64,000 nucleotides of DNA from Symbiodinium natans (taxonomy: Eukaryota; Sar; Dinophyceae; Suessiales; Symbiodiniaceae): NCBI GenBank assembly GCA_905221605.1, contig CAJNDS010002210.1, positions 517,075-581,074 of the forward strand. The letters run 5' to 3'. The position numbers were made by a program, and so were the translations under genes. This document shows, piece after piece, positions 1 through 62,532 of this stretch (position 1 is the stretch's first letter; every line of letters starts with the position of its first letter). The notes under the pieces are model-generated. The model did no database searches. It was not told where the DNA came from and worked only from the letters and a program-made list of their open reading frames with translations.

Positions 1-385
1 TTAGGGTTTCAGCGTCCACCCTGCCCGTCCTATGCCTCGGCCTCGGCACGGGCTCAAAACAAGGGTGTTCGGGGAGTCCGCAGCGTATGTTCATGCCTAA
101 ACCCTAAACCCTAAACCCGAAACCCCAAACCCTGTGCGCGTGTGAGAACCGAAACCCTAACCCTAAAAACCCGGAAAACCCTGAAAACCCTCCCAAGCAT
201 GTAGGGCCATCCCGAGGCCACCTAATTCCCTGTTCCGGGACCATGTGGCATAGCACCGGATTGCTGTTTGGGTTTGTGCATGAAGCTCCACTCTACGGAG
301 CCATGTCACTTACCATTCGCCCATATCCCGGAAACTTAAGCTGAGTTCCGTAAACAGCAACAGCCAACGGAATGAAGCCTACCCC
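1..385. other. Non-coding start of window
   Basis: No supported gene. Degenerate CCCTAAA units lie near 98-190, then about 190 bp of ordinary unique sequence. The window opens on a partial TTAGGG unit, but unique sequence follows at once, so this is not evidence of a chromosome end. Confidence 0.6.
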
Positions 386-15029: not shown

Positions 15030-16572
15030 TACGCCTGCTTAGACCTGCAGCTGCCTGTGCATACGCACCGACGTCGGTGCGTGCACATACAACTTATGGC
15101 GGAGAATGCAAGATTCAAAACAGGGTTAAATGCCAGAAGCCCAGCTGTCTAGAACTTGGGGCTGCAAGCTCTTGTCAGCATGTGCTTTCCAGGTTTAGGG
15201 TTTAGGGTTTAGGGCTTAGGGCTTAGGGCTTAGGGTTAGATATTGCGACCATTCGCGGGGGGTGTGAGGGTTGAGGCCTTAAGGTTTCTAGGGCCTATGG
15301 GGATGGGTAACTACGAATAGGACAGTATCTCTGAGCGAGGCCCGCGCGTCTACAACACCAAAGTGGGCAATTTCACCTGTTGCTTCTTGCGGAGCTATGC
15401 CTCACCATCCTACATTCCCAGACCCCTAGATTTCAAAGCCCAAATCCGATTCTAAACCCGAAACCCGGCATCCGGAAACCCTAAACCCTAAACGGCCCTA
15501 AACCTTAAAGCCTGAACCCTAAACCCTAAACCCTAAACCCTGAACCCTGAACCCTGAACCCTGTTTCTTCAGAAGGTTCTCCGGCCTGACCCACCCACAC
15601 GGATTCTTTTGGTCCCTGGCTGCGGACTATGGCATCATGCACCCTGGCATTGGGTTTTAGGGTTTAGGGTTTTGAGTTTAGGGTTTAGGGTGTCGTTTAG
15701 GGCTGCTCCTCATGAGTGGTTGAGAGCTGTTGCTAGTAGGGCTTTGTCTTCTTAGTCCTGTTCCTGTGCACGGTGCTGTCGTGCGTAGCGCGGGTTCAAA
15801 AAAGGGCTTAGGGTTTACGGTTTGCATCAGGGTTCAGGGTTTAGGGTCTAGGGGTACTGACCGGAGTTTGGGCTGATAAGACGTTGAGGGCTGAAGTCTG
15901 TGGGATCAAAAGGTCAGCCCCAAGCTAAGCAGTACGGGAACAGGTGTACAATCAGAGACCAGACACAGTCAGCCACACCATCTCACCGAAAGCAGAGCGC
16001 AACAAATGTCCAGAAGCCGTTCTGCAAGCCTCATACACTGCACATGCGCCAGAGGTGCCAGTATCCTATCCCAGTGTGTCTGAGCGGGGAAATTCGTAAG
16101 GTCCTTGTAGAACACCTTAACGAGTATATAGGGGGAGGTAGATGGGGTACCCACCTAACTCCCGAATCCACGAACAAGTAGCTCAGTGCAAAAAGTCATC
16201 TCGGAGTAGAGCCCAGGCTCTTCCTCATCGTCCGGCATCAGTCCGTTCAATTCACGTACGGTGCGCGTGGGGTGAGCGTGAAGACAGGTCTAGTTCGGGC
16301 TTAGGGCATCTGATGCTTAGGAGAGTGTGGGCTTAAAGGGGCAAGACTACAGAGGTGAATTAGCAGTTTTTTCTAGTGTTTGTGGGTGCCGCAGTTCATA
16401 TTCGGGAGGCAGATCAGTTCAGAGGGGTTTGTGGCGCCAGTCCGATGACTCCTCTCCCAAACAGTCAGCGTTTTTTGTGAGCAGTGCAAGCCAGTGTAAG
16501 CAGCTCCTCAAAGAACCAGCTAGACGAGGAAAGGCGGAGCGCCTCCGCTGGCAGGCTCAAAGGCCCCTACAT
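15030..16572. other. Non-coding mosaic
   Basis: Short telomeric tracts at 15190-15240, 15475-15560 and 15655-15690. The unique block 15890-16560 has overlapping frames of 61-93 aa without recognisable features, so I leave it unannotated. Confidence 0.45.
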
Positions 16573-16687
16573 TATAACCCCTAAACCCCTAAACCCCTAA
16601 ACCCCTAAACCCCTAAACCCCTAAACCCCTAAACCCCTAAACCCCTAAACCCCTAAACCCCTAAACCCCTAAACCCTAAACCCTAAA
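16573..16687. repeat. CCCCTAAA octamer array
   Basis: Twelve or more tandem CCCCTAAA units ending in CCCTAAA heptamers. Confidence 0.95.
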
Positions 16688-17472
16688 CTGCCAGGTGCTT
16701 CCGGCCATTAAGCCCTAAACCCCCTAAACCGCGATGAGTCAGTGCCCTGGCAGTGTATGGAGGCCTCTTCGTGGCCTTGCCCCTGGTTCTGGTGAGCTTG
16801 GAGCCTTTAGTCTGGAGGCCCGCAGTGTGTCCAGCAGTCAGGGTTTAGGGTTCAGGGTTTAGGGTTCAGGGTTTAGGGTTTCGGGTTTAGGGTTTAGGGT
16901 TTAGGGTTTAGGGTTTGAGGTTTTGGTTGAGTATCTTAGAATCTTGCTCCTATAGTGCTACACTGTGCGACCTAGAATTTGTGGCTTTCAGGGTGTAGGG
17001 TTTAGGGTTCAGGACCGTGAACATCTAGGGTTTAGGGCTGATAGTGTAAAGGGTTTACGGTGAGAAGTCCTGCTGACAAACCTGTTGCCAAAAAGGTTTA
17101 CAGGCAATAAGCGCCGCCCACTTTTGAGAAGAGCCGTGCCATATATTCAATAGAGCTAGGTGGAGATATCGTGGTTGCGCATTGCGGGTAGGTCCCAGAA
17201 CCCTCATTGAGTCCTACTGCCATGGCATGGCATTCAAGCTCAGACAACCCGACACGCAGGCGAGAGGACCACGCAGTCCCCAAAGACTCCTATTACCTCG
17301 TCCGGGTCGCTGAGTTTGCTGCTTGGGCGCTGTTATAGCTTGGGGCAAAGGTTTTTATTGCACAGGATGGAGCGCTTAAACCGATTCGGCTGCATCCGCC
17401 GTGTGTGTGCTTCTTAAAAGCGGTCAGGAATCTCACAGGGTAATCACACAAACCTTAAACCCTAAACCCTAA
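16688..17472. other. Non-coding mosaic up to the retrotransposon
   Basis: TTTAGGG/TTCAGGG tract at 16839-16922, then unique sequence, ending in a short CCCTAAA stretch at 17455-17472 that is the insertion target of the copia element. Confidence 0.6.
17468..17472. repeat. Target-site duplication, left copy
   Basis: The 5 bp CCTAA immediately before the left LTR is repeated immediately after the right LTR at 26553-26557. Five-bp duplications are usual for Ty1/copia integrases. The target was telomere-like repeat. Confidence 0.85.
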
Positions 17473-17707
17473 TGTTGATACATGGTGTCAGTGTCATCAT
17501 CGGGGGCAACAGGCCTTGTGAAATCATGGGCTGCCATGGCGGGTTCACTCGCTCCTCTGTTTCTCGCACACAGAAAGAAGATGCGACATGAGTTCCACTG
17601 GCATCTGTGCATACAGTGGAGCAAGCTGTGTTATGCTTCTCATGTTTGATGAGCCGTTCGAGGCTGCAAAAGAGTGAGGAGATATCCCCTATACTTCCAT
17701 TTCAACA
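17473..17707 (-). repeat. 3' LTR of the copia element (235 bp)
   Basis: It begins TGTTGATACATGG and ends CATTTCAACA, so the termini are TGTTGA/TCAACA inverted repeats. By eye it is identical to 26318-26552, implying recent insertion. Confidence 0.95.
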
Positions 17708-17717
17708 CTCCTCCTTG
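17708..17717 (-). promoter_or_regulatory. Polypurine tract
   Basis: On the minus strand CAAGGAGGAG lies directly against the 3' LTR, the expected position for the plus-strand primer of reverse transcription. Confidence 0.7.
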
Positions 17718-17755
17718 AAGTGACCGTCAGGTCTCTTCACTTCTATACAGAAACT

Positions 17756-20700
17756 TCAAATCGTTCTTGTTGCATACAGCTGCCTACCTCCATTCCGACA
17801 GCAAGCACAAAATGTGCGAATTTGAATCTGCGAGGCGTTCCGAAGGCCCCAACAGTCTCTTGTGATATGCACGTGGTCACCCCCATTCGTCACATAGAAC
17901 GGTCCCGGGTGCCACGTTGGAACTTCTCGCTCCACTTCTCGAATCTCGATCCTCGCAGGCTCAGCAGACATCAGCCTTGTCATTCCCATACTGCATTGGA
18001 CCTGGGCATCCACCATTATCGGCCTGGTAGCTGGCGTTCGCAACCGATCATTCAACTGCTCCACCAACTCATCTTCCACCATGTTTCGAAGCCTTTCCAG
18101 GCGCCGGCTTCTTCTTGGATCCCAGCGGCGGTCGAACCATCTCATGGTCTTACCATATGCCCATCTGAGAACTTCCCACGCAACCAGCATAGTGATGCAA
18201 GCCATCATCATGAGGATGTAGAACTCGATTGACCCATCCAACTGGAGGGAAGCTTGAGGGTTCTCGGCCTTGGATCCACACACCCAACCACACATCAAGA
18301 GGATCCTCAAGATCTTCGCCTTAAGCTCCGTTGCCAACAGCCCTTGCAGCCCCCAGAGTCGGCATAACTCTTCATGGCGATCTTTGGGCAGTGGTTTGGT
18401 TAAAAGGTCAGCCTTCTGGAACTGGCCTCTACAGTGGCAGACCTTCAAAAAGCCAGACTTTGCCTGTTCCCTCAGGTACGATGCACGGACCTTCAGGTGG
18501 CGGGTTCTCCAAGAACCCGCCCCGTCAGAGCTGAGCCCCACCGCCGCCATATTGTCGATCTGCAGCTCCAGCACATTGACCTGGATGTCGAGCTGGCGGA
18601 TTACAGCCATCACCGCTCTGGCAAGTACGATACTGTCTATGGACGCAACGAGTTCGCACTCTGCGGTCGACAGAGTTACGAAACTCTGCCGACCGCTTCG
18701 CCAGGCCACCGGGCAATTGTAAAGGCAAACCAGAGTTCCGGTGTGCGACCGTCGCCCAGTCGGGGCGAACGACGAGTCGCTGAAGGCTTGCAGCGTCACG
18801 CCACCAGGCACCAGCAGCAAACCACGAGCCTTCGTCCTCTGCAGGAAGCCCAATATTCTGGATCCTATCTGGATCACCTTCTCCGGGTTCTTCAGCACAT
18901 GGCTCGCCATGATCGACAAGTGGAATGCGAGGTCAGGCCTCGAACGTTGGCTAATCCAGAGCAACTCTCCAGTTATCTTTTGTGCTTCGCGGATGGCACC
19001 TGGGTTCTTGGAAGATTCTGCAGGGTTCTCCTCCTCCTCATCCATTGCCATCCATTCTCGTGGGCAAGGCACCAATCCCATCTGGGTCTTTGGCACTTCA
19101 TACGCCCTCAACAGTTCAGCAATGTACGCCTCCTGGTTGATGAAGTAGCATCCAGTCTCCGTTCTCTGAATCTCACAACCCAGAAACCTGACCACTCGTC
19201 CTTCATCACATAGTTCCAACTCCGAAACCTCCCATTCTGCCTTGAATCTCTCGCCCAAGGTTTCCACCAATCTACGGTCTCCACAGATCAAAATATCGTC
19301 CACGTAGATCAAGATGGCACCGATCACCCGGTTCTCACCCGCATAGTGCACTGACCAAAGGTTCGGCTCGATGTCGCCCTGTTTGAGGACCACCTTCCGT
19401 CCATCCATGTTGACTACGAAGTCCTTCATCACCGAATCCCGGTACTGCGCCCAAAGCCGTGGACTTTGCCTCAGTCCATACAGGGCCCGTGTCAACTTCC
19501 AACGCTCTTGCTTGTTCACCACCCCCAGCAACACGAGGACATGTGGCGGTGTGACGACCACAACCTTCTCCCCCTCCTCTGTAGGCATTGGCGTAAGGAG
19601 GAACGCCCCAGTGACGTCGATGGCACCAATATACCATTTCCGTCTCCCAGATTCAACCAGGACACATCTGAGCGTCTCTCCCGCGGCACCCGAGGCAAAA
19701 CAGTCTAGCAGCTGCTCATCTATCATGTTGCCACATGCCACAATCCTGGCCTTGCGTCGGTAGAGGGCCTGTGAGCCCTTCTTGGGTGGTTTGATCGTGT
19801 AGACGATCTTGGCCGGGACCACCAGCATATCGTCCATCTTGAACCGTTTCAGAAGTTCTCCCATTGTCGTCCTGTCGAACCCCTTCTTGACGACACCAAA
19901 CTCCTCAAGGATGGGGTCCTTCCAAAAATCCAAATGAGCCTTTGCTTCTGCGGGATCCACGTTGTAGACCACATCTACTGGGGTTCGCATCGACTCCAGT
20001 AGCTCTTCCATTCCCTTGGTAAACTCCGGCTCTGCCTTCATGACACGAGGGTTTTCTACTCCCTTCTCGTGCAAATAGCCTTGAAGCTTCTCCAAGTCCT
20101 CCATGGCCAACTTCTCGTCCACAGCCTCCAACGTTAAGTTCCGACACTTCCGTTGTGCCATCGACAAGTCCTCCGCGCTTGGCCCTTCCAACATTTGAAC
20201 TTTACGAACACCCGTCGGTTCGTCCACATGGATCTCCCATTTTCCAACAAACTCCGCATCCATCGGCTCGGTGTTGTCTTCTGGCTCCTCATCGTCCCGG
20301 TCCGTGTACTCCTCATCAGATACTTCATTGTACTGATCCGGATCCGGATCATCCGGAATTCGCTCCTCCTCATTGTCCGAATCATCATCCTCATCATCCG
20401 GATCTTCGTCGTCGTTCTCCTCCTCCTCCTCAATCGGATCTTCGGTCTCAATGGGAAACCCCAACTCCACAAGCTTGTTCAGCTCGCCTTCCGTCAGCTT
20501 CTCGAAACCAGATGGGGTATAACCAACTAGCAACCAATCATTCGCCGAGTTAGGTAGGAAGCCGTGGAATTTCTTCGGGTTGAAACCAGTGGCTCGATGT
20601 CCAATATCGTAGAAACGTCCAACACCCTGGCTTCCATCTGGCAGGACCTGTGGCATGTCACCCCGTACAGCCTCGCCCCTTGCAGGATTTGAGTCATCAT

Positions 20701-23700
20701 CTCCAGACACCCATAGCCCGCGTTGCGATCTATCCGAGATCTCCACCACATAGTTCCAGGATCCACGCTTATTGTGGACATCAGTGTGTGGGGGAATGGC
20801 ATTGCCCGTGAACACTCCCAGCGTCGCCCAAGTGACTGAGCCTTCTGGTAGGTGACTGGTAGCCCTTTTGAGGTATTCGTTGAGGTACATCACGACTGCT
20901 TCTTTGTTTCGGGTCTGGACCGTAATACCTCTATTCCCACCCTGGCAGTAAGCCCCAAAGGCCTGAAAGCATCCTTCTCCCCTTCGCGTTCTCACCTTTG
21001 CCGCCACCACTAATTTCTCCAACAGCTCCAAGCATCCTTCTTTCGAGAAGTCCTCCATGTTCAAAAGATGTTGGGCAAGGGCCTTAACTTCAGCCAGTGT
21101 TTCTCGGCTTCTACCCTGCGCACGCATCACCCGGACTGACGGGGTAGACGGCCCAACTGGTGATGTAGAAGGTGAGGATTTTGCTCGTAGCCGTCGGCGC
21201 CGCCCATCACGAGGAGCAGCTCCAGTGGGTGCGTCTCTTGCATAAGGTCTCGCATCCGCTGGCCTTGTCTTTGACCGAAGTCTCAACGCTGGTTCAACAA
21301 TCAGAGGAGAGACAACATCCTTCAACGGAGGTGGTTCCACTGGTGTTCTCACATGGACGGTTTGCACATATCCACCCCCATCTTTTAGAATGCAGTGGCC
21401 TCCACGGACATCTATCGAAGGTCCCAAATACTTCCCACGTGTCCACTTTGGTCCCAGATCTTCGACCGCTCCCGTCTTATAGCGCTTGGTTTTGATGTAG
21501 CAGGGGGAGCCAAAGGGTGCCAACATAGGACTCGGCAGGCCCATCCTGTCACATCTTTGCATTGAAGCCGCCGCGTGAAGCGCCAAAGGCCAGGCTGCCT
21601 TATGCACTGCCCCAGAGTCCAGCAAGATCCGAATACGCTTCTTCAGGTACTTCACGCCTGCTTCAGCAACACCATTGGAGGCTGGGTTATCGCCTTCGGT
21701 GGTCGTAGGCAACATCCCCTTTTTCAGAATCCAATTTCTAACCATCTTGCTCCGAAGTTCACCCGCCCTATCACCATGGACTCTATGCATAGGGAAACCA
21801 AGGGCCTTCACGTCCACATAGATCCTCTGCAATGCTGGCAGGACACTGGCGGCCTTCTTGTTCCTCATCGGCACCGCGAAGTACGCTGTTTCCAGGGCAA
21901 CGGGCGTCGTGAAACCTTCCATCATCTTCTTCCAGGCCTTCTTCTCCTCCTCCTCTGATGGCATACCCTCTTCCGGCATCTCATCCTTTCCTGGTTCCAC
22001 ACCTGCACCAAACGGGTCTGCATCCCCCGGTTGCTCCTCCCCTTCCGAGAACTCCTCATCCTCAGCACTGGGCAAAGGAAAACCAGCTTCAGGACTTACT
22101 CCCTCCAAGCGTGGGAATCTGTATGCCCCGATCAGGAAGTACCTCAGGCCTTTCGAATCCGGAGTGACGCCCGGGTATTTCAGTGGTCCAGCAACGTCAA
22201 TGCTCAGTGTATAGGCCATTGGATGAAGGGTTGACCTATGCTGCCTTCCCGTGGCTGCATTTCTCACGCAAACAGCACAGTTGCGCTCAAACGGCTGGTG
22301 GTGGTTGAGGACATGAGTCCTCCATGCCGCCTCACTGGCCAGCTTGGCCAGCCTTGCTCTCGTAGGGCCTTGAAGACCACACCACCTGATCACGTAGTTG
22401 GCAATGTCAGATGTAGCCATCGAGCCTCCCTCAATGCCCACCTCCTCAGCAAACTTCCTGTAAGCCCCATCGGCAGCCCAGGTGGCCCCAATCTTCATGG
22501 ATGCCGGTCTCTCTAAGACCAAAGCCGTCTCGATGCGACCCCCGCTGATCTTTCTGCGGAATCTCGCCAGTGTTGCCAACAAGTTCAGGTAATGCACCTT
22601 GGCCCTAAATGGTTCATCATCACGATGTTGCACTTCGTTGAGGGTTACATCCTGCAGCACCATAGCCGAGATCTTACCCTCCAACGCAGCCCCAAGTAGC
22701 ACCTTCCAAAGCTCCTCCCCTGGAATCTGACCCCTCAACCTGTCAAGATCCCAAACGACAGCATCATGCATGCCATCCAGGGCCCAAATTGGATCTCGTC
22801 CACGCTCTAGTCGATTCCAACGAACCACCCAGGTTGAGGACCGGCAAAGGCGCTTTCGACGCCTACGATTAACCGGCAAAGTCTTGAGGCGTTCCCACGG
22901 GTCCATGTTGCCGAAGTCGTGAAGTCGGACCATCTCCTCCTCATCTAAAGACTTCAGGAACACCGCCTTATTGACCACCTCCTTCACATGCTTAACCTCC
23001 TGGGTCTCCACATATCGTTGCAACGCCGTCCACCAGCTCACAGACACATCATGCAAGTGACGGGCAGAGGCCTCGGTCGTGTCCCTTAGCTGATTCTCCA
23101 GTTCCTCAATCAGCTTGAGACCCTTCTCTTCCTCAATCTCCGGGCACCCATTTCTCAGATGTAGCTTCTCTTTCTTTCCGTCAGGGCAAACCAACCAGCA
23201 TCCCTCCGGCGTCCACGAAAGTGCATAACCCAGCGTGCTGATGACCTTGCCTAGGGGAACAATCGTCTGCAAACCTGGTGTTTCCGAATCGACCAGCAGG
23301 GTGCCTGCCTCAGATTGCTGCATCGTTGCCTTGCCTTCTCCAGCTAAGGTCACGTCCACGTTCCTCGTGGTCGATCTTTCCCACTCCGAAGCGCCGCGAA
23401 GAGCATGCGTGGCTCCGGAATCAAGCAAGGCCTTCCGGACTTCCATGTCATCCTTCACCCCATCCAGTCGAAGAACTTGCAATCGGCGTATCTCATCCAG
23501 GGCCTTCGCCATCAAGCTTTTCATCTCGGTCGCTTCCTGGGCCTCAAAGGTGATGGCTTTCATAGGTCTCTGTCCGCCTGCTGGCTTCACAGACCCATCT
23601 GAGCCCATGGCTGAAGTTGCCGTAGGAGAAGTCGGCGTTAGATCATGCCCAGCATCACCCCCAGCTTCCCTCTCCTTTCGCTTCGCTCCAGGTACCATAC

Positions 23701-25456
23701 AATCTTTGGCTCGGTGGGTCGTGGCTCCACATGCCAGACACTTCGACTTCTTCTCCTCCTTCGTGAGGCCGGCCATCGAATGCTTGTAGCGACACTTATT
23801 CCCTCGACTGCAGCCTTTGTCCTTCAGAAAGAACCTGCATACATCTGTGGTAGTAGATGACGACGGTGTCTTTGGCGTTTGATCGGAACCACCATGAGCA
23901 CTTGGGGCCGCCACCAATCCCTTGACCACAGGCAGCGTCGTAGTGGATGAAGAAGGCTCTCTCGCTGTGGTCCTAGCATGGGTCTCCAGCTCAGCCAAAA
24001 GGTGCTGGTGATACTGCAGCACCGTTGACGGTTGAGGGTTATTGTCGACTTGCAGTGACGCTCTCACTAGGGACACCCTAAAGGCCAGCTCACTGTCTGA
24101 TCGTATCACCCGCTGCGTCAAGTTGTCGAGGCCCTTCATCAGGATGGATGCGTCGGGTTCCACGATGCCCAACGTTCTTGCTCTCTTCAACCACAACAAC
24201 CATCTACGAAGCCCTTGAGCCGCCTGAGAGGAAGTCGTACTTTCTCCTGGCGATTCCAAGTTCTTGAGGATCAAGGATTTTTCCTGCTTGTTGCCCGGCT
24301 GGTACACCGTGAGAATCCTACATACCACACCCATTGCCGTCATGTCGCCATGAGTGATGATGTCCCGCCTCAAGGAATCTGGAATCGCCGAAAGCAGCAT
24401 GGCCACCGCCCTCCTTTCTACTCTCGACCACTCCGGCTTCTGCAGCTGTCCTTCCGCTACTGGTTTCAACTGCAATCTCTGCAATGGGCTTGCCGACGCA
24501 TACTCCTGGTACCACACCGAAGACTGGCGCAATGTCTCACCCCACCACAGTCCCGAAGTGTCAGAGATGTCCTCAAGGATTGGACCGATATGGGTCATCC
24601 AATGCACCATATCGATGGCTGCCGTCTCTGGATCATACTCCGGAAGTTTTGGAAGCTCCTGCGCCCCCGGCTTAACGGCTTCAGGCTGACCAGTCTTCGT
24701 AGGGCTTTGGGTCTTCTTCAACAACTCCTCAATCCCTCGTGCCATGGAGAGTAGCACCCGATCTGTAGTGGTCATAGTCGGTGCCGCACCCTCACCTCCA
24801 GCATGTTCAGGACCTGTCGTATTGCGTGGGGGAGATTGTGTTCTTCCCAAACCCAGGAGATCACGAAGAGAACGTCCAAGCTGCGACTCATTAGCCAGAC
24901 CAGTGTTTGCCCTGTGTTGATCACTATCATTATGAGGACCAGGTAGTGCGTGTGATTGCTCCGGTAGTCCACGAGATTGAACTTGCCCTAGGCGTACTGA
25001 CTGGCTACCCACACCCCCTTGACCCAACGATCCCATAACCGCTTGCCCAGGTAGTGCGTGTGATTGCTCAGGTAGCCCATGAGATTGAACTTGCCCTAGG
25101 CGTACTGATTGGCTACCCACACCCCCTTGACCCAACGATCCCATAACCGCTTGTCCAGGTAGTGCGCGTGATTGCTCTGGTAGTCCATGAGATTGAACTT
25201 CCAGTCTCGAATTGTCCCGGGCCTCTTGACCCAAGATTCCAAGCGGATTTCCTTCGATCCGTATCGAATCCCCCATCATTGCGCCCGAACCAGTGGCCAC
25301 CAAACGTCCACCCGCTCCAGCATGCACATGACTTGTCGGGTTAAGTCCAACTGGACCATGACCTGGGATGGGTAAAGCCGTCCATCCCGCATCTCGGCCT
25401 TCATTTCTCTCAATACCCGCATGCCCATCAAGACCTCCATCATCTTGCCCAGTCAT
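17756..25456 (-). CDS. Copia Gag-Pol polyprotein with oxygenase-like insert (ORF2)
   Basis: 2566 aa, uninterrupted. Seen in order: three 36-aa repeats near 80-175; Gag capsid-like helical region about 265-490; CCCH finger C540-C549-C555-H559; CCHC knuckle C573-C576-H581-C586; aspartic protease D679-S-G-A-T; integrase zinc site H1048/H1052, C1060, C1063 and catalytic D1087, D1229, E1265 (D-x35-E, with a long acidic insert between the two Asp); an HxD...H segment at 1495-1660 (H1557, D1559, H1631) like Fe(II)/2-oxoglutarate oxygenases; an acidic linker about 1670-1740; reverse transcriptase about 1860-2110 with Y2051-V-D-D; RNase H D2227, E2266, D2301, D2350. The tail has a predicted membrane helix at 2410-2432 and a His/Cys-rich end (C2550, C2552, C2553). 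The start ATG overlaps the ORF1 stop as ATGA, suggesting reinitiation or -1 slippage on a nearby T6 run. Catalytic residues are all present; the oxygenase assignment is inference. Confidence 0.93.
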   Translation of the reverse strand: MTGQDDGGLDGHAGIERNEGRDAGWTALPIPGHGPVGLNPTSHVHAGAGGRLVATGSGAMMGDSIRIEGNPLGILGQEARDNSRLEVQSHGLPEQSRALPGQAVMGSLGQGGVGSQSVRLGQVQSHGLPEQSHALPGQAVMGSLGQGGVGSQSVRLGQVQSRGLPEQSHALPGPHNDSDQHRANTGLANESQLGRSLRDLLGLGRTQSPPRNTTGPEHAGGEGAAPTMTTTDRVLLSMARGIEELLKKTQSPTKTGQPEAVKPGAQELPKLPEYDPETAAIDMVHWMTHIGPILEDISDTSGLWWGETLRQSSVWYQEYASASPLQRLQLKPVAEGQLQKPEWSRVERRAVAMLLSAIPDSLRRDIITHGDMTAMGVVCRILTVYQPGNKQEKSLILKNLESPGESTTSSQAAQGLRRWLLWLKRARTLGIVEPDASILMKGLDNLTQRVIRSDSELAFRVSLVRASLQVDNNPQPSTVLQYHQHLLAELETHARTTAREPSSSTTTLPVVKGLVAAPSAHGGSDQTPKTPSSSTTTDVCRFFLKDKGCSRGNKCRYKHSMAGLTKEEKKSKCLACGATTHRAKDCMVPGAKRKEREAGGDAGHDLTPTSPTATSAMGSDGSVKPAGGQRPMKAITFEAQEATEMKSLMAKALDEIRRLQVLRLDGVKDDMEVRKALLDSGATHALRGASEWERSTTRNVDVTLAGEGKATMQQSEAGTLLVDSETPGLQTIVPLGKVISTLGYALSWTPEGCWLVCPDGKKEKLHLRNGCPEIEEEKGLKLIEELENQLRDTTEASARHLHDVSVSWWTALQRYVETQEVKHVKEVVNKAVFLKSLDEEEMVRLHDFGNMDPWERLKTLPVNRRRRKRLCRSSTWVVRWNRLERGRDPIWALDGMHDAVVWDLDRLRGQIPGEELWKVLLGAALEGKISAMVLQDVTLNEVQHRDDEPFRAKVHYLNLLATLARFRRKISGGRIETALVLERPASMKIGATWAADGAYRKFAEEVGIEGGSMATSDIANYVIRWCGLQGPTRARLAKLASEAAWRTHVLNHHQPFERNCAVCVRNAATGRQHRSTLHPMAYTLSIDVAGPLKYPGVTPDSKGLRYFLIGAYRFPRLEGVSPEAGFPLPSAEDEEFSEGEEQPGDADPFGAGVEPGKDEMPEEGMPSEEEEKKAWKKMMEGFTTPVALETAYFAVPMRNKKAASVLPALQRIYVDVKALGFPMHRVHGDRAGELRSKMVRNWILKKGMLPTTTEGDNPASNGVAEAGVKYLKKRIRILLDSGAVHKAAWPLALHAAASMQRCDRMGLPSPMLAPFGSPCYIKTKRYKTGAVEDLGPKWTRGKYLGPSIDVRGGHCILKDGGGYVQTVHVRTPVEPPPLKDVVSPLIVEPALRLRSKTRPADARPYARDAPTGAAPRDGRRRRLRAKSSPSTSPVGPSTPSVRVMRAQGRSRETLAEVKALAQHLLNMEDFSKEGCLELLEKLVVAAKVRTRRGEGCFQAFGAYCQGGNRGITVQTRNKEAVVMYLNEYLKRATSHLPEGSVTWATLGVFTGNAIPPHTDVHNKRGSWNYVVEISDRSQRGLWVSGDDDSNPARGEAVRGDMPQVLPDGSQGVGRFYDIGHRATGFNPKKFHGFLPNSANDWLLVGYTPSGFEKLTEGELNKLVELGFPIETEDPIEEEEENDDEDPDDEDDDSDNEEERIPDDPDPDQYNEVSDEEYTDRDDEEPEDNTEPMDAEFVGKWEIHVDEPTGVRKVQMLEGPSAEDLSMAQRKCRNLTLEAVDEKLAMEDLEKLQGYLHEKGVENPRVMKAEPEFTKGMEELLESMRTPVDVVYNVDPAEAKAHLDFWKDPILEEFGVVKKGFDRTTMGELLKRFKMDDMLVVPAKIVYTIKPPKKGSQALYRRKARIVACGNMIDEQLLDCFASGAAGETLRCVLVESGRRKWYIGAIDVTGAFLLTPMPTEEGEKVVVVTPPHVLVLLGVVNKQERWKLTRALYGLRQSPRLWAQYRDSVMKDFVVNMDGRKVVLKQGDIEPNLWSVHYAGENRVIGAILIYVDDILICGDRRLVETLGERFKAEWEVSELELCDEGRVVRFLGCEIQRTETGCYFINQEAYIAELLRAYEVPKTQMGLVPCPREWMAMDEEEENPAESSKNPGAIREAQKITGELLWISQRSRPDLAFHLSIMASHVLKNPEKVIQIGSRILGFLQRTKARGLLLVPGGVTLQAFSDSSFAPTGRRSHTGTLVCLYNCPVAWRSGRQSFVTLSTAECELVASIDSIVLARAVMAVIRQLDIQVNVLELQIDNMAAVGLSSDGAGSWRTRHLKVRASYLREQAKSGFLKVCHCRGQFQKADLLTKPLPKDRHEELCRLWGLQGLLATELKAKILRILLMCGWVCGSKAENPQASLQLDGSIEFYILMMMACITMLVAWEVLRWAYGKTMRWFDRRWDPRRSRRLERLRNMVEDELVEQLNDRLRTPATRPIMVDAQVQCSMGMTRLMSAEPARIEIREVEREVPTWHPGPFYVTNGGDHVHITRDCWGLRNASQIQIRTFCACCRNGGRQLYATRTI
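24941..25210 (-). repeat. 108-bp tandem repeat inside ORF2
   Basis: AGGTAGTGCG recurs at 24941, 25049 and 25157, exactly 108 bp apart. The unit encodes 36 aa (for example HGLPEQSHALPGQAVMGSLG and on), repeated two full times plus a partial. The frame is kept. The segment is Gly/Gln/Ser-rich and probably disordered. Confidence 0.9.
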
Positions 25457-26469
25457 GGAAAAAACTGGTACCCCATCTGGAATGCCTCCAATTCTCCACC
25501 CGTCTTACGAAGTCGCTCCCTCTCCAACTGCTGTCTCATGCTCTGAGCCTGCGCCAAAGCACTCTCAGCTCTCAACCTTTCCTCCTGCAGTTGTCCCAGC
25601 ACCCCACTCAGTTGGCGTCGGACTTCAGCTTGGACATCTTCCCGATGCACGGAATCCGAGGTGCCTTCAGAGGTTGTATAGGGCTGTGGGTTGGCACCTG
25701 GAGGAGGTCCTTGTAGAAGAGAGGAAACATTCTGCAGATGCTGACTGGTGTTCGGGGGCATTAAGGACGTACCCATTGACGATGCCGTCCAGGTAGCTCC
25801 CTCATGGGGTCTGCTCGCCGTCGGGCTCCAGCTTGCTCTCACCTCCTGGTGAACCAATGCCTGAGCACTTCCAGCTGTTCCTGACACAGCTGTCGACGCC
25901 CTATGAAAAAACTCTCCCAAACGCATCATCCATTGCAGTGGTGACGCTTGCTCGCCCTGTCGGACACGCCCCGTTGGTCGTATCGCATCGCTCGCGCCCG
26001 AGTCCGGTGGTGGATCCAGTAAAAGCGACGACCCTGGGAGCGGTGACGGAGCCAGGTCTCCGCTTGCCTTGACAGGTCCCGTTGGCAAAACCAATGGCGA
26101 AGAGGCGTCATTGTCCTCCCTTCCACGGTCAGCAGCTGACGGTGCTAGTCTCATTGGTCTAGCATCAGCGTGATGCCTCAGATCAGCACTTGCCGGTCCA
26201 ATACCATTCATAACGGGCCTCTCAACCTGTCCTGCATCTTGCCGAGTCCCAACAACCGCATCCAAATCAGCAGAGTGATTCAAAGGCGAGCCAGCAGCAA
26301 CTTGGGCTGTCATAACCTGTTGATACATGGTGTCAGTGTCATCATCGGGGGCAACAGGCCTTGTGAAATCATGGGCTGCCATGGCGGGTTCACTCGCTCC
26401 TCTGTTTCTCGCACACAGAAAGAAGATGCGACATGAGTTCCACTGGCATCTGTGCATACAGTGGAGCAA
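25453..26469 (-). CDS. Copia ORF1, 338-aa coiled-coil protein
   Basis: A frame upstream of Gag-Pol that opens inside the 5' LTR. Possible starts are M1 (26469) and the MAAHDF methionine, both in the LTR, or MYQQVM near the LTR/internal junction. The frame crosses from LTR to internal region without a stop. The last 70 residues (EDVQAEVRRQLSGVLGQLQE and on) have heptad-like spacing typical of a coiled coil; the rest is Pro/Ser/Ala-rich and probably disordered. No zinc finger or protease is visible; those lie in ORF2. It could be an extra structural or RNA-binding Gag-like protein. Its TGA is embedded in the ORF2 ATG (ATGA). I do not recognise a family. Confidence 0.75.
   Translation of the reverse strand: MLHCMHRCQWNSCRIFFLCARNRGASEPAMAAHDFTRPVAPDDDTDTMYQQVMTAQVAAGSPLNHSADLDAVVGTRQDAGQVERPVMNGIGPASADLRHHADARPMRLAPSAADRGREDNDASSPLVLPTGPVKASGDLAPSPLPGSSLLLDPPPDSGASDAIRPTGRVRQGEQASPLQWMMRLGEFFHRASTAVSGTAGSAQALVHQEVRASWSPTASRPHEGATWTASSMGTSLMPPNTSQHLQNVSSLLQGPPPGANPQPYTTSEGTSDSVHREDVQAEVRRQLSGVLGQLQEERLRAESALAQAQSMRQQLERERLRKTGGELEAFQMGYQFFP
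26301..26317 (-). promoter_or_regulatory. Putative primer-binding site
   Basis: Directly after the 5' LTR the minus strand reads GGTTATGACAGCCC. GGTTATG is complementary to the CAUAACC of the initiator-tRNA anticodon loop. Copia of Drosophila is known to prime from a tRNA-iMet half molecule at a similar sequence; assigning the same primer here is inference. Confidence 0.55.
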
Positions 26470-26552
26470 GCTGTGTTATGCTTCTCATGTTTGATGAGCC
26501 GTTCGAGGCTGCAAAAGAGTGAGGAGATATCCCCTATACTTCCATTTCAACA
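26318..26552 (-). repeat. 5' LTR of the copia element (235 bp)
   Basis: Same sequence and termini as 17473-17707. It contains the beginning of ORF1, so transcripts starting inside it must retain the ORF1 start or use a later methionine. Confidence 0.95.
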
Positions 26553-26557
26553 CCTAA
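26553..26557. repeat. Target-site duplication, right copy
   Basis: CCTAA, identical to 17468-17472. Confidence 0.85.
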
Positions 26558-48786: not shown

Positions 48787-48900
48787 AATCCCCCAAAACC
48801 CTAAACCCCAAACCCTAAACCCTCTGTATGAAACAGTTGGCTCAAGATTTCTATCAGCCGCAGTAGGGATGGAGTGACATTTTGCTTCAAGATTTCCGCA

Positions 48901-49913
48901 ATGTTGCGGATTCAGATGATGATGACTGGGGAAGAGGTGGCTTGCCTCGAGCCGGACGAGTTGCTGAGCATCTCCGGCGACACTGCTACGGGCCACGTGC
49001 GCGCCTTAAAGCTCCGTCTCCAAAGGCTCTGTGGGCATCCCCGGTTTCGGCAGCGGCTCCTGCAAGAAGACGGGCAGTTTTTGCCCGAAGAGGCGGTCCT
49101 GGAAGCACCTTACGCCTGGGAATTCTGGACTTTGCCGAGACCTCTGGCGATGATATTGACAGGCTGCTCCATGCAGTAGCAGCAGACGATGCAACACAAG
49201 TAGAAACGATCTTGCAGCGACCCCAAGATCCAAGCCTAACGGCGCAACGCAACATGACAGCCGCCTTGCATGTTGCAGCGACGTATGGCAGGCAAGTCGC
49301 CACAAGGCTGCTGCTCGAAGCTGGTGCGGGAAAGGACCAAACTGAAGACCGTGGAGCCACGCCGCTTGTCATCGCAGCTCAGAACGGTCACTTGGAAGTG
49401 GCACGTTTGTTGCTGGAGTTTGGTGCGGACAAGGATCTAGCCAAAGCACACGGAGCCACGGCACTTTTCATCACCGCTCAGAATGGCCACTTGGAAGTGG
49501 TACGTTTGTTGCTGGAGTTTGGCGCGGACAAGGACCGGGCCGACGCAAATGGGGCCACACCACTTTCCATCGCAGCTCGGAACGGCCACTTGGAAGTGAC
49601 ACGCTTGTTGCTGGAGTTTGGTGCGGACAAGGACCTGGCTGACGCGAGTGGAGCCACACCACTTTTCATGGCAGCTGAGAACGCCCGCTTGGAAGTGGCA
49701 CGCTTGTTACTGGAGTTTGGTGCGGACAAGGAACTGCCAGTTTCAGATGGAGCCACGCCACTTTTCATCGCAGCTCGGAACGGCCACTTGGAAGTTGCAC
49801 GTTTGTTGCTGGAGTTCAGTGCAGACAAGGACCTAACGACTTCTGATGGGGCCACGCCACTGTTCATCGCAGCTCAGAACGGCGACATGGAAGTGGCTCG
49901 CTTGTTGCGATGA
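48901..49913 (+). pseudogene. Ankyrin-repeat protein gene with apparent frameshift
   Basis: From ATG 48901 one frame gives MLRIQMMMTGEEVACLEPDE, continuing about 70 aa (ALKLRLQRLCGHPRFRQRLL). This resembles the short ubiquitin-like leader that precedes ankyrin repeats in many dinoflagellate proteins. Near 49111-49120 the coding sense moves to another frame (ILDFAETSGDDIDRLLHAVA), which stays open to 49913. It encodes about seven 33-aa ankyrin repeats (ATPLFIAAQNGHLEVARLLL type), near-identical at the DNA level (99-bp period). The last is cut short by TGA after RLLR, so the repeat lacks its second half. One missing base at the junction would explain the split; a sequencing error or a tiny intron are alternatives. 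Ankyrin repeats bind proteins; the partner is unknown. It stands alone between telomeric tracts. Confidence 0.8.
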
Positions 49914-58984: not shown

Positions 58985-59128
58985 TACTTGGAGGTTCATG
59001 GTACTTATCACCCCATGATAACTGCACTTATAGCCCACTTTCAAGCCCTTTAAGTGCCCCAAGATGGTTCTAATCGGGTTATGAGAACAGTTATCATTGG
59101 GTTTTTTTGTACCATGAACCTCCAGGTA
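58985..59128. mobile_element. F1 copy D, candidate intron (introner)
   Basis: Terminal inverted repeats TACTTGGAGGTTCATGGTAC and GTACCATGAACCTCCAGGTA. The GT at 58984-58985 and the CAG ending at 59125 give a GT-AG intron of 142 bp within the element. With that splice, the open frame 58815-58983 joins the frame of the downstream gene without a stop (codon split T|GT). In the other F1 copies the right end reads CCAAG; here CCAGG creates the AG acceptor. Frame agreement could be chance. Confidence 0.6.
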
Positions 59129-60873
59129 GAGGTACTGGGAACTTGGACAGCATCACTGTGGCGGCCAAGCTAGCTGTCTTCATCTCTACAGCAGAGAGAC
59201 CACTTCTCGGCAGTGACCTGCCGGGCTTCTACCATTTGAATCCAGAGTACAGAGAATTCATATCCAGCAGCGGCGGGTTGCGACTCTTCTGTGACGACCA
59301 CCCTGGTCTGGTTTGTTACCATTGGCAGTACAATGAGATCCGGCTTCCTCAGCATTGCTGCTACTTCCTGCGCAACAAGTGCAGGTACAAGCGCAGTCAT
59401 GGCGAATTCTTGCATGATGCTTCAGTGTCGAGTGGTGCTGTTTGCTGTTCATATGGTCCTGCCTGCAAATCTGGCCACTGGCAAGAGGTAGAAAAGCTCG
59501 CGGCTGCAGAAGCATCGTCTCAGGATGCAGAGTCTATTGATTCGGAGACTGAGTGTGAGCATGAAGCAGACGCGTTGGAGCTGTCCGCGAGCCAGATTCG
59601 TTGGGCACACGACTCCATTGAAGTTCGCTTCAGGAACGGCAGGTTACTGGTGGATACGTTGAAGGAGCTTCTTTCTGGAGACCTGGAAGCGTGTGCCCTT
59701 CCAAAACTCTCAGTATGGCAGGAGGGAAATGTGTGGTTCGCTGTCACTGGCAACAGGCGGCTGTGGGTGCTCAGAGAACTCGCCAGAATGACCAACAGAG
59801 ATGTACGAGTTGCTGTGCGCCGATTAAGTTCAGGTGCTGCTAATTCGGCGTGGTTCCGTCGTATGTTCACAACAAGGACTCACGGAGAATCTGTGTGCTT
59901 TGTGGCGTTGAAGCATCATTTTCCAAGCATGGGATTTGCCCTAGCATCACTGGAGCCCTCCACGGCACCAAGCGCACAGGATTTAGAAATTGGCCACCTC
60001 CTGCAAGGCTCCCCGAAGGACAGTCGGCTGAATGCGTTGGAGGCATGGTTCAGCTCCTTTTCTGCAACATCCCGCATTCGAGCAAGGCCTGACTTGTTCT
60101 CAGTCTCGGGTTCTGGCCTGGTGGCTTTTGCAAGCCCAGTGCAGGGCACGTTTGTCAGCGCTCCGGCTGGCGCGAAGCTTCCGGAAGCCGGACAGGGCTC
60201 AGGCGAGCCGGCGTCGGAAAACTTTGGCCCCAAGTCGACGAGTCGATCGCTGGTGTGGAAGGCCAAGGCGGCCCATCCTCCGAAGGAGGATGCCATGGAG
60301 GATGCGTTTCAGGATCCCCTAAGGGAGCCCTCGCCGGGCTCTGGCACCCGCAGTCCGCAAGATTGCCGGAGCCGTGATGTCAACGAGGAGCAGCACAAGT
60401 GTGAACAATCCCAAGGTTCCCAGGGCAAGCAGCCGGTTCTCCATAAGGGCGAGCACGTTTCGGTGAAGAAGCACAGCGGCATGGGCTGTGCCATTGTGTC
60501 GTTCGAGGATGCCGAGGTGAGGCAGCGCATCCTGGTCAAGGGACCTCGGGAGGTCGGAGGTGTCAAGATCGACGTCGCTGCCCACGTGGATACCGCGACC
60601 TTGCGTGAGGCACCCAATGACCTGTTTGTGGCATGGGGCCGGCAGGCAGAGCGATCAACCCCTCTCTCCGCACAGGATCTGGCGAGGCATTTTGACGCAA
60701 GGTGTGAGGAGGTATGCAAGGAGCAGCAAGCAGGCATGAGAGCGGCCGCGAAGGCAGCTGAGGAGCCTGTCGAGGAGGGCGAATCCAGCCATGGCTTGGT
60801 GGATCGAGCTGCAGCGGCCGGCGCCTCTTCACGATGCATGTCTGACAGTCGAAAAGAAGCCTTATCTCTGTGA
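59126..60873 (+). CDS. Zinc-finger / ParB-like domain protein
   Basis: About 582 aa in one open exon. No ATG exists near its beginning (first in-frame Met is about 220 aa in), so the start is probably in an upstream exon joined across the F1 element. Counting from TTG 59107: residues 25-80 (GSDLPGFYHLNPEYREFISS, GGLRLFCDDHPGL) may be a small winged-helix module. C85, C92, H98 and H103 and then C114, C120 and H124 look like two CCCH-type zinc sites with substitutions. Residues 165-245 (VRFRNGRLLVDTLKELLSGD, FAVTGNRRLWVLREL) resemble the ParB/sulfiredoxin-like fold with its NRR signature. Residues 330-440 are disordered. The region 455-540 (KKHSGMGCAIVSFEDAEVRQ, NDLFVAWGRQAE) is conserved-looking but unassigned. 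Zinc fingers suggest RNA or DNA binding; the function is otherwise unknown. It is followed 88 bp later by the ATPase gene on the same strand. Confidence 0.75.
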
Positions 60874-60961: not shown

Positions 60962-62532
60962 ATGATCAAGTTCCCGTGGTTGTTCAGCTCCGAGGTGCAG
61001 CCGCCTTCAGCTCGTGCTGCTTCGCCTGGGCGGCAGCCGTGCTCTTGCAGCCTGGACAGCCTCATCTCCAGGCTTCCAACTCGGATCTTGCAAGAGCTGG
61101 CTCCTCCGGATCTTGCGGCGCTTTTGCATTCAACCTGTGCACAGAAGCTGGTACTGCAGGAGGGCCGTCGCATCCAGGTCGTCCCATCTACCGGCTCGGA
61201 CTTGCGGAAACTTCCACAGGCTCAAGTCACGCATCAAGACTTAGTAGAGATTGCTGCAGAGCTTGGGCTATCGGGGGGGACAGGAATGTGCACAGCCATG
61301 CAGCCTGTAAACGGTGGCATACATCGTGTCAGCATCGGCTACAGCGTGCAGATGCGCATTGAGTCTTGCTTAGCCCATATGCAAACTTTAAAGTTCTTTC
61401 TTGGGTGTCCTTATTTTGAAGTAAACATGGGGCTTTCTTTGCCTAGTAAACATGGAGCTTTGCCCCCTTTCTTTTTTTTGTTTTTAATTCCATGGCTGTT
61501 GGAGATGCCAGATGTAAGGACTCGATCTCCTTTCATATCGGGCGGCTGCTGCCAGGAGTCAGCAACCCAGTACGCGGGCTCCTTCAAGCAGGGAGCTGCA
61601 TCTTCCTTGGGCCCTGCCGCAGTGGTAAGACCCTTGGGGCCCAAATGAAGCCATAAAAGGGCTTATGATACGGCTTATGGTTCATGTACCTTAATCGGTT
61701 TTCGAGTAGCATAGGGCCCTAAGCCCTTAACCCAAAATCCCAAGTTGAGGGTTCCTACGGTCCCCGAGGACCACTGCCCTCCGTGACGCCGCCAGCTTTT
61801 TGTCGAAGACCTGCCAGGTTATCGTCGTGGACTTCTTTGAGGAACTAAGGGTAGTTATATACCCTATACAAGTTAAGGGCCCATACATCAGGACCCTTTA
61901 AAGAGAAGAGAGTAAGGGGCCATATCAAGGGCCCATGAACCTACCCTTGGAAAGGAACTCCACCAGGGAGGCTTGGGTCTAGCCCAGCATGTGGTCAGCG
62001 CGAGCGCGACAGATCCGGTGCAAGTGATTTCGCAGGTGGTGGTTTCCGAAATTGGGGGTACCTTATTGGGGTCTTAGTCTTTACAAGAACGGGAATCCCA
62101 ATTGAGGGATCCGCTATTCTCGCAAGTCCCCAGGTTATCCATCAGCACGGTCCGGACGTCTGCGTGGCAGAGTTCCGACAAGCTTCCGACGCATTGGCTG
62201 CTGGGCGCATTTGCCGAGGTGCGGGCCTGCAGTTGATATGCTCAGCGCCTTGGCCGCTGAATGCCTTGGCTGAGTCGTTCTTCATGAGCGGATTTGGTGC
62301 TTATGTGCCCCCTTGCATCTCCTTCCCCTTTGTGGCCGCTGTCATGCTACGCCCGGAGATGGATTTTTGGCAGGTCTATCGCAATGTGCAAGCCACAGTT
62401 TGCTCGATGTCCTGGAACAAGACTTGCGCTACACACATGGCCCCGCAGAAGGAGGTTCTTTTTCCCACCTACGTCCACCTGAAGCCATTGCAGTCCCCAA
62501 TGGACCTGGAGAAGGCCGAACAAAAGGACTGA
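60962..62532 (+). CDS. Ycf45/SpoIIIAA-like P-loop ATPase, five exons
   Basis: Proposed exons: 60962-61360, 61519-61628, 61769-61850, 61967-62035 and 62134-62532. They total 1059 nt, all phases fit, and the product is 352 aa. Residues 31-133 (LDSLISRLPTRILQELAP, VTHQDLVEIAAELG, GGIHRVS) follow the family N-domain, including the LHRIS-type motif. HIGRLLPGV matches the RVGR box. Walker A is G164-PCRSGK-T171, TALRDAASFLS follows as in the family, and Walker B is VIVVD ending at D191. VISQVIHQHGPDVCVAEF and GLQLICSAP match the MIEAVENHMPEVIVIDEI and GVQLVGTAHG positions. The usual Asp-Glu of that second strand is replaced by AE, and the helix after the P-loop is intact. Cyanobacterial and plastid relatives are AAA-like ATPases of poorly known role, so plastid action is only a guess. 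No R3H domain is seen. The ATG is the first in frame; an upstream exon cannot be excluded. Confidence 0.72.
61361..61518 (+). other. Intron 1 of the ATPase gene (GA-AG)
   Basis: 158 bp, starting GAGTCTTGC and ending TGTAAG. Exon 1 ends ...MRI in phase 0, and exon 2 starts GACTCGATC (DSI). The near-repeat GAGTC/GACTC at the two borders resembles a target duplication. GA donors are known in dinoflagellates. The interior is not matched elsewhere in the window. Confidence 0.6.
61629..61768 (+). mobile_element. Intron 2 = F2 element (introner), GA-AG
   Basis: 140 bp between GGTAA and GACCACTGCC. Removing it restores G-K-T-T-A-L-R across the Walker A. GACC occurs at both borders. The insert begins CCTTGGGGCCCAAATGAAGC and ends GGTCCCCGAG, matching the F2 terminal inverted repeats. 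It carries TATGGTTCATGTACCTTAAT and GAGTAGCATAGGG, as in the F2 copies at 5462, 42458 and 55225. Confidence 0.75.
61851..61966 (+). mobile_element. Intron 3, F6-like (GT-AG)
   Basis: 116 bp from GTAGTTATATACCC to CTCCACCAG, phase 0. It has imperfect inverted ends (GGAACTAAGGGTAG and CTACCCTTGGAAAGGAACTC reach into the exon edge). The inner CAAGTTAAGGGCCCATAC matches 39669-39690. Confidence 0.55.
62036..62133 (+). mobile_element. Intron 4, F4-like (GT-AG)
   Basis: 98 bp from GTGGTGGTTTCCGAAATTGG to GCAAGTCCCCAG, phase 0. Removal joins VISQ to VIHQHGPD. CCGAAATTGGGGGTACC and CTTATTGGGGTC match the F4 element at 32245-32330. Confidence 0.7.

Follow-up and report, generated by a model that had tools for sequence, protein, structure and literature searches.

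Analysis of a 64,000-nucleotide stretch of the genome of the coral-symbiont alga Symbiodinium natans (contig CAJNDS010002210.1, positions 517,075 to 581,074; hereafter the window) revealed a long terminal repeat (LTR) retrotransposon of the Ty1/copia type with both ends present (17473..26552, minus strand), whose main Gag-Pol open reading frame (ORF; 17756..25456, minus strand, 2566 codons) harbors an oxygenase-like domain between integrase and reverse transcriptase (RT). Based on profile boundaries, conservation, and alignments, this TET/JBP-like Fe(II) oxygenase domain was delimited to residues 1461-1680 (20417..21076, minus strand). A previous sequence-only reading had listed H1557, D1559, a GLWV strand (from residue 1580), and H1631, and all of them were recovered at these residues, with the minus strand as coding strand, the integrase residues D1087, D1229, and E1265 (D-x35-E spacing, by eye) upstream, and RVT_2, the RT domain (Pfam, residues 1879-2126), downstream. 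The HxD metal motif (20780..20788) consists of H1557 (20786-20788) and D1559 (20780-20782) and is followed by N1562 at H+5 (20771..20773), the distal metal histidine H1631 (20564..20566), D1640 (20537..20539), and Y1646 (20519..20521), all on the minus strand. D1640 lies in the column of the residue for the C5-carboxylate of 2-oxoglutarate (2OG), so that the usual 2OG-binding Arg is missing in the window copy, as had been noticed before.

Database searches led to 39 proteins (P0003-P0041), of which every organism-named one belonged to Symbiodinium, including one from S. natans with 98% identity over the queried part, and the genome of the window itself (759 Mb) contained at least 162 matches to the domain (150 of 1270 candidates scored). 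The oxygenase-like segment was confirmed, and what had been treated as a feature of one element proved to belong to a large family distributed across several kinds of retroelements; the jumping gene in the window and many relatives in the same genome carry it. Conservation was counted in 54 representatives of less than 70% identity taken from 112 rows, rows shorter than 120 residues (count of H/D/N/H) or 140 residues (tree and residue-column count) being left out when representatives were chosen; since the relatives were collected by profile, and thus chosen for likeness, these counts lean upward. P0037 and P0038, each in two pieces and devoid of the HxD part, were left out of the counts, the tree, and the full-column list, ten shorter proteins stood outside the counts, among them P0048 (166 aa) with a Tyr at the distal His, and L011 and L026 represent one locus.

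In all 54 representatives, H, D, N (H+5), and the distal H were each present, and the only exceptions over all 112 rows were two rows of one locus, which carries stops. A loss of the metal triad in most intact relatives, named beforehand as a sign against an oxygenase, was not seen. Only 8 of the 245 columns were invariant in alignment A2 (31 sequences, mean column identity 37%), and these included the three triad residues and, as a fourth, the Asn at H+5. The 2OG-site column held Arg in 42 and Lys in 4 of the 54 representatives, and the column six residues later (Arg+6) F or Y in 51 and His in 3. A basic residue at the 2OG site, which the earlier reading had suggested looking for in relatives, thus exists in most of them, and the window lineage carries Asp or Glu instead. 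Arg was also missing in L021, L022-L025, L028-L032, L037, L049, P0012, P0023, P0027, and P0034, other lineages that carry Gln, His, Asn, Asp, Glu, Ala, or Met in its place; this pattern suggests repeated loss of the residue. GGxLW and FDP strands are likewise present in the family. Along the polyprotein, compared with ten domain-bearing proteins, the domain stands out as an island whose conservation is similar to that of integrase and RT, with poorly conserved linkers on both sides. The pattern H-x-D-(50..100)-H taken by itself is at chance level (3 occurrences in the ORF, mean of 2.25 in 500 shuffles); a chance motif was nevertheless set aside as an explanation, because the conservation across the 54 representatives exceeds chance.

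Regarding the element as a whole, the 235-bp LTRs (TG..CA) at 26318..26552 (5' LTR) and 17473..17707 (3' LTR, from the terminal repeat comparison), both on the minus strand, are 100% identical, and the target-site duplication CCTAA was found on the left (17468..17472) and on the right (26553..26557). The repeat was first reported as 236 bp, i.e., the LTR plus one base shared with the target duplication. Since the LTRs are identical and CCTAA flanks both ends, the insertion is recent and the element is young. LTRs, target duplication, and an integrase upstream of RVT_2 place it in Ty1/copia, the integrase being assigned by motif and by homology to L045. Further parts of the main ORF are a CCCH zinc finger (Pfam, residues 537-561), the protease motif DSGA (residue 679, by eye), the RT motif YVDD (residue 2051, by eye), and an RNase H following RT (by eye). 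An upstream open frame of 338 codons (25453..26469, minus strand) encodes the N-terminal part in a different frame, the frame change of the window copy occurring at a run of six T (25453-26469 vs 25456), unlike L004, L006, and L008, own-genome copies with single open frames of 2906-2907 codons. The Gag N-terminal part contains a 108-bp unit in tandem duplication (24939-25154, 95% identity). On the coding strand, a purine-rich tract AAGGAGGAG precedes the 3' LTR (within 17708-17760) and a primer-site-like GGTTATGACAGCC lies just after the 5' LTR (within 26300-26317), both identified by eye. Telomere-like CCCTAAA runs occur at 16560-16930 and 17450-17472, and the element is inserted at one of them. 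Elsewhere in the window, an ankyrin-repeat ORF (48882-49913, plus strand, 343 codons; Ank_2, E 1.2e-67) and two plus-strand ORFs with no Pfam match at E 0.1 were identified (59107-60873, 588 codons; 60962-61648, 228 codons).

Selection in the window lineage

Between the window copy and L006-L008, the ratio of nonsynonymous to synonymous substitution rates (dN/dS) was 0.05 both in the domain, where these copies are 88% identical, and in the RT region, and 0.03 on the upstream/integrase side; with a synonymous rate dS of 1.2-1.4, these values are rough. For the domain, comparison with L009 and L010 resulted in 0.07 and 0.10, respectively, and the near-identical copies L003 and L004 gave 0.25 and 0.60, derived from very few changes. 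Nine own-genome copies of this lineage, including the one in the window, have no stop in the domain, and all of them retained both metal His, the Asp, the Asn, and the Tyr; their Arg column held Asp in 7 cases and Glu in 2. N and the distal H are lost in a single own-genome copy of the lineage, the only one whose domain contains stops. Thus, the domain is kept by selection in the window lineage, and since the low dN/dS was measured in a lineage without Arg, the loss of this residue did not end the constraint. The relic reading was rejected on this basis (dN/dS of 0.05, equal to RT), and the earlier idea of a non-catalytic relic is weakened by a value obtained within the Arg-less lineage itself.

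The domain may still be catalytically dead and serve the window lineage as a metal- or nucleic-acid-binding module, e.g., in integration targeting or template binding, with catalysis confined to other families. The exchange of the 2OG Arg for Asp or Glu in nine stop-free copies under purifying selection would fit such a role, as would the loss of Arg in other branches. On the other hand, the same nine copies kept the triad of metal ligands and the two positions of the base pocket, for which a dead domain would have little use, and the TET homologue CMD1 works without 2OG according to the available text of PMC7854593. Altogether, we regard a dead domain as unlikely.

Active-site resemblance and rival readings

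According to the same available text (PMC7854593), N4 of the base is contacted by N1387 in TET2, D234 in NgTET1, and D350 in CMD1, and the base ring stacks on Y1902, F295, and F416, respectively, six residues past the 2OG-site Arg (R1896, R289, and R410). CMD1 H345 and D350 thereby put the base-contacting residue at H+5, and in the TET2 chains of the PDB we read HRDLHN, i.e., an Asn at H+5. Both spacings, the Asn at H+5 and the aromatic residue at Arg+6, are the same in our family, so that N1562 and Y1646 of the window copy occupy the base-contacting Asn/Asp position and the base-stacking aromatic position of these enzymes. In addition, a 34-mer of TET2 comprising its HxD part aligned best at the domain site in 70 of 93 long frames with near copies included (20 shuffles: 0-8) and in 31 of 42 after their removal (100 shuffles: 0-8), compared with 1 for AlkB, 1 for YbiX, and 3-4 for TauD. 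Among Pfam families, Tet_JBP matched 4 of the 31 members of A2 (L038, E 0.001; L042, 0.067; L046, 0.078; L044, 0.1) and, in a second branch of the family described below, 2 of 9 pieces, the close relatives L066 (E 0.04) and L060 (E 0.064). These matches start at model position 64-77 and finish at 119 or 161-162 of 164, a part of the model that should hold the metal site.

Several results weigh against a TET/JBP-type base oxygenase. The best Tet_JBP score was 18.8 bits against a curated cut-off of 34.9, no profile match exceeded any cut-off, and no match to Tet_JBP was obtained for 27 of 31 A2 members, 7 of 9 second-branch pieces, P0041, P0051, and three long second-branch frames. Pfam searches of alignment A1 (22 members, including the window copy) detected no oxygenase (Tet_JBP 0 of 22), and the irrelevant family TPIP1 matched more members there, namely 13 of 22 (best E 0.0007; 3 of 31 in A2). 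No oxygenase was among the matches of the PDB profile searches, and Tet_JBP run against the whole own genome found none at E<=0.001; the latter is no proof of absence, since 14 control genomes were equally silent. With HRDLHN masked, the TET2 34-mer aligned at the site in 0 of 42 frames, and with its flanks shuffled in a mean of about 26. At Arg+8, where the known enzymes carry His1904, His297, and Arg418 (available text of PMC7854593), neither His nor Arg occurred in the 54 representatives and Pro did in 29. As a second conserved Arg, for the 2OG C1-carboxylate or the base, no invariant Arg was found across the whole family, one being invariant within A1 only. Finally, the window lineage itself lacks the 2OG Arg.

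Some other candidates were taken as chance matches, namely TPIP1 (in three inspected members confined to residues 20-56, outside the active site), PDB 3v9f (whole-sequence E 0.00019 for A1 and 0.0059 for A2, summed from weak stretches), PDB 8om2 (0.022), 5ngy and 5lfc (0.14), and PHROG 6059 (3 of 31, best 0.0055). No PDB, PHROG, or TPIP1 match with a shown position spans the whole metal triad; those of 3v9f and 8om2 reach only its HxD part. NCBIfam and tblastn searches in phages gave nothing useful, no relatives were confirmed in viral and genome contig collections, and relatives of YbiX and AlkB sought for a profile-profile comparison were not obtained.

Taken together, what supports the resemblance to TET/JBP is the active-site residues together with selection, whereas no profile score was significant. 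The original suggestion of an Fe(II)/2OG enzyme of TET/JBP type is partly supported, with its residues in favor, i.e., the triad, the Arg in most relatives, and the base-pocket spacing, and with weak profile support below every cut-off. Because the match of the TET2 34-mer hangs on a six-residue motif, we use the label TET/JBP-like for the domain and refrain from assigning membership. In our preferred reading, these about 200 residues of Pol belong to the Fe(II)-dependent oxygenase superfamily, with active-site residues closest to TET/JBP.

A serious rival is an RNA eraser, since dinoflagellate mRNA is rich in N1-methyladenosine (m1A): the domain might strip methyl groups (m1A or N6-methyladenosine, m6A) from the RNA of the element, so that RT can copy it. 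According to the available text of PMC11549093, 3.05% of the adenines in mRNA of Amphidinium carterae are m1A, in Symbiodinium sp. m1A is more abundant than m6A, and the modification blocks normal pairing. It should therefore stall RT, to which the domain is adjacent. Moreover, an AlkB-type m6A demethylase of an orchid Gypsy element was active in vitro (available text of PMC9289625). The residues of our family favor TET/JBP over AlkB, however, and membership in AlkB is unsupported, as no AlkB-type Pfam family was detected in the 31 + 22 members and the AlkB HxD segment hit the site once in 42 frames, compared with 31 for TET2; in addition, the words demethylase, ALKBH, transposon, and reverse transcript do not occur in the text of PMC11549093. 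Demethylation of RNA therefore appears quite unlikely to us.

Still more doubtful is a protein hydroxylase or another Fe(II) oxygenase that modifies a chromatin protein of the host or, within the element, Gag or integrase. Functions within the Fe/2OG superfamily are diverse, a His-to-Arg spacing of 9-10 residues also occurs in prolyl-hydroxylase types, and one of the 31 A2 members matched 2OG-FeII_Oxy (E 0.015). Against this, the TET/JBP base-pocket residues are conserved, the HxD segment of YbiX (PKHD-type) was on site in 1 of 42, and neither the Pfam tables of the 31 + 22 members nor the HxD-segment test supported membership in the prolyl hydroxylases. Least probable of all is a different conserved fold using H, D, and H, e.g., for zinc binding, which would agree with the lack of profile matches over cut-off and with TPIP1 outnumbering Tet_JBP in A1; against it stand the triad, the Arg spacing, the GGxLW and FDP strands, and the matches below cut-off that two separate oxygenase families gave in the proper region.

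The wider family and its element layouts

As read with profiles built from these proteins, the order integrase-domain-RT was found in 39 of 40 proteins, in 28 of the 31 loci L002-L032, and in L039, L045, and L048. In L045, Pfam rve, the domain, and RVT_2 follow each other in that order, with rve and RVT_2 both below the Pfam cut-off. P0036 displayed the order RT-integrase-domain, and L011/L026 had no RT in view. An integrase-like match downstream of the domain was detected in L033-L037 and L040 (16-38 bits), in L021, and weakly in L046, by which a second copia-like layout is suggested; the open frame of L036, from this set, extends up to 7861 codons. L043 revealed a weak integrase-like match upstream of the domain, and no integrase was found within the 5 kb read in L038, L041, L042, L044, L047, and L049-L051.

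The distant relative P0051 gave at least 122 matches in the own genome (122 of 1306 candidates scored), which form the second branch. All 24 loci read (8 cut automatically, 16 fetched; L061-L075 read without their surrounding context) possess HxDxxN and the distal H, with an Arg 9-12 residues later by eye, and the Arg column held R in 14 of 14 representatives. L060 harbors an RVT_1 match (E 1.7e-5, below cut-off) preceded by a stretch with FxGxA, PPC, and ENP like C5-methyltransferases, and L053 a methyltransferase-like stretch ahead of the domain (Pfam DNA_methylase, E 0.29). The label methyltransferase-like was given by eye, and a PDB search with the corresponding alignment resulted in chance matches only. 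In the non-copia loci L052, L053-L059, and L060, the HxDxxN...H...R domain has an RT-like part (RVT_1 in L060) and a stretch resembling C5-methyltransferases as neighbors, so that a single retroelement may carry a writer-plus-oxidiser pair.

The tree of the domain largely tracks the layout of the elements, as expected if the domain has long traveled with them. Support was 99/98 for the second branch, 93/89 for a 12-row group of the second set, and 88/87 for the main integrase-domain-RT group of 24 rows; three integrase-domain-RT rows and L049 fall apart from the main groups. For this grouping, all P rows and the loci up to L032 had been assigned to integrase-domain-RT before the layout check, the exceptions being L021, P0036, and L011/L026. 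The domain is probably not general to copia, as it was absent within 2.2 kb upstream in 10 of 10 RVT_2 places sampled from 150 listed, a sample that divergent forms could escape, since the integrase profile found only 1 of these 10.

Proposed working and comparison with known systems

Flanked by integrase and RT in the polyprotein, the domain would be synthesized and probably packaged together with both. Fe(II) would be held by two His and one Asp and a flipped pyrimidine base by the invariant Asn (H+5) and the aromatic residue at Arg column +6, so that the C5-methyl group of this base could be oxidised. Because fresh complementary DNA (cDNA) carries no 5-methylcytosine (5mC), the likely DNA substrate within the particle would be thymine of the new cDNA, converted to 5-hydroxymethyluracil (5hmU), which is a natural base of dinoflagellate DNA (available text of PMC6680887). 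Alternatively, 5mC of silenced copies may be the substrate, as proposed for fungal transposons (PMC12730594). Most families would bind 2OG by the retained Arg (or Lys), and since Asp or Glu replaced Arg under strong constraint in the window lineage, this one may use another co-substrate or perform a non-catalytic metal/base-binding job; CMD1, a TET homologue, uses vitamin C instead of 2OG (PMC7854593). On the evidence of these residues, we hold it to be about an even call that Pol carries a TET/JBP-like base oxygenase that is active in most families and, in the window lineage, altered in co-substrate binding or silent. A 2024 PNAS paper reportedly linked 5hmU to the silencing of transposable elements, and because of this link a marking of the cDNA could be camouflage as well as self-restraint. 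Going further, an old TET/JBP-type family in several kinds of dinoflagellate retrotransposons (copia with the domain after or before the integrase, and non-copia with a methyltransferase-like stretch) might mark its own cDNA prior to integration, in the simplest case by turning thymine into host-like 5hmU, with some lineages, including that of the window, having swapped 2OG for another co-substrate; this extended proposal is tentative and, as a whole, rather on the unlikely side.

If true, no earlier case of a TET/JBP-like enzyme in a retrotransposon would be known. A 2025 survey of fungi stated that no retrotransposon carries TET/JBP and offered a reason (PMC12730594), a remark that would be overturned by a selected TET/JBP-like domain in Pol with at least 162 matches in one dinoflagellate genome. 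It would also give a handle on how mobile DNA copes with an unusual genome with 5hmU, 5mC, and m1A-rich mRNA and make it testable whether base marks on the copies of retroelements are written or erased by the elements themselves, the Arg-less lineages being natural variants for testing a change of co-substrate. In the open-licence PMC subset (titles and abstract openings), no paper reporting the domain was found.

Compared with known systems, the domain shares with TET/JBP enzymes (TET2, NgTET1, CMD1, CcTET, JBP1/2; PF12851) the HxD..H triad, the Asn/Asp at H+5, the aromatic residue at Arg+6, and, in most members, the Arg at the 2OG site, but differs in staying far below the Pfam cut-off, in having neither His nor Arg at Arg+8, in being embedded in a Pol polyprotein, and in having lost the 2OG Arg in some lineages including that of the window. 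The element fits Ty1/copia in its LTRs, its target duplication, and the order protease-integrase-RT-RNase H, from which it deviates by an additional domain located between integrase and RT. In retroelements of Symbiodinium, base-modifying domains are known from retrotransposons bearing DNA methyltransferases (DNMTs; de Mendoza 2018, PMC5890265), but these carry methyltransferases, Copia is said there to be without any DNMT domain, and the words oxygenase, 2OG, and AlkB are absent from the available text. The fungal TET/JBP genes (Kojima 2025, PMC12730594) likewise represent mobile-element-borne oxygenases of TET/JBP type across several element types, yet their carriers are DNA transposons and Helitrons, in contrast to the retrotransposons of our study with the domain inside the polyprotein. 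The nearest retrotransposon case is the AlkB-type 2OG-dependent dioxygenase of Phalaenopsis, according to the available text of PMC9289625 also an Fe/2OG oxygenase in an LTR retrotransposon; while that enzyme is AlkB-like, recognised by profiles, encoded by a separate ORF of a Ty3/Gypsy element, and an m6A demethylase in vitro, the domain described here is TET/JBP-like and lies within copia Pol.

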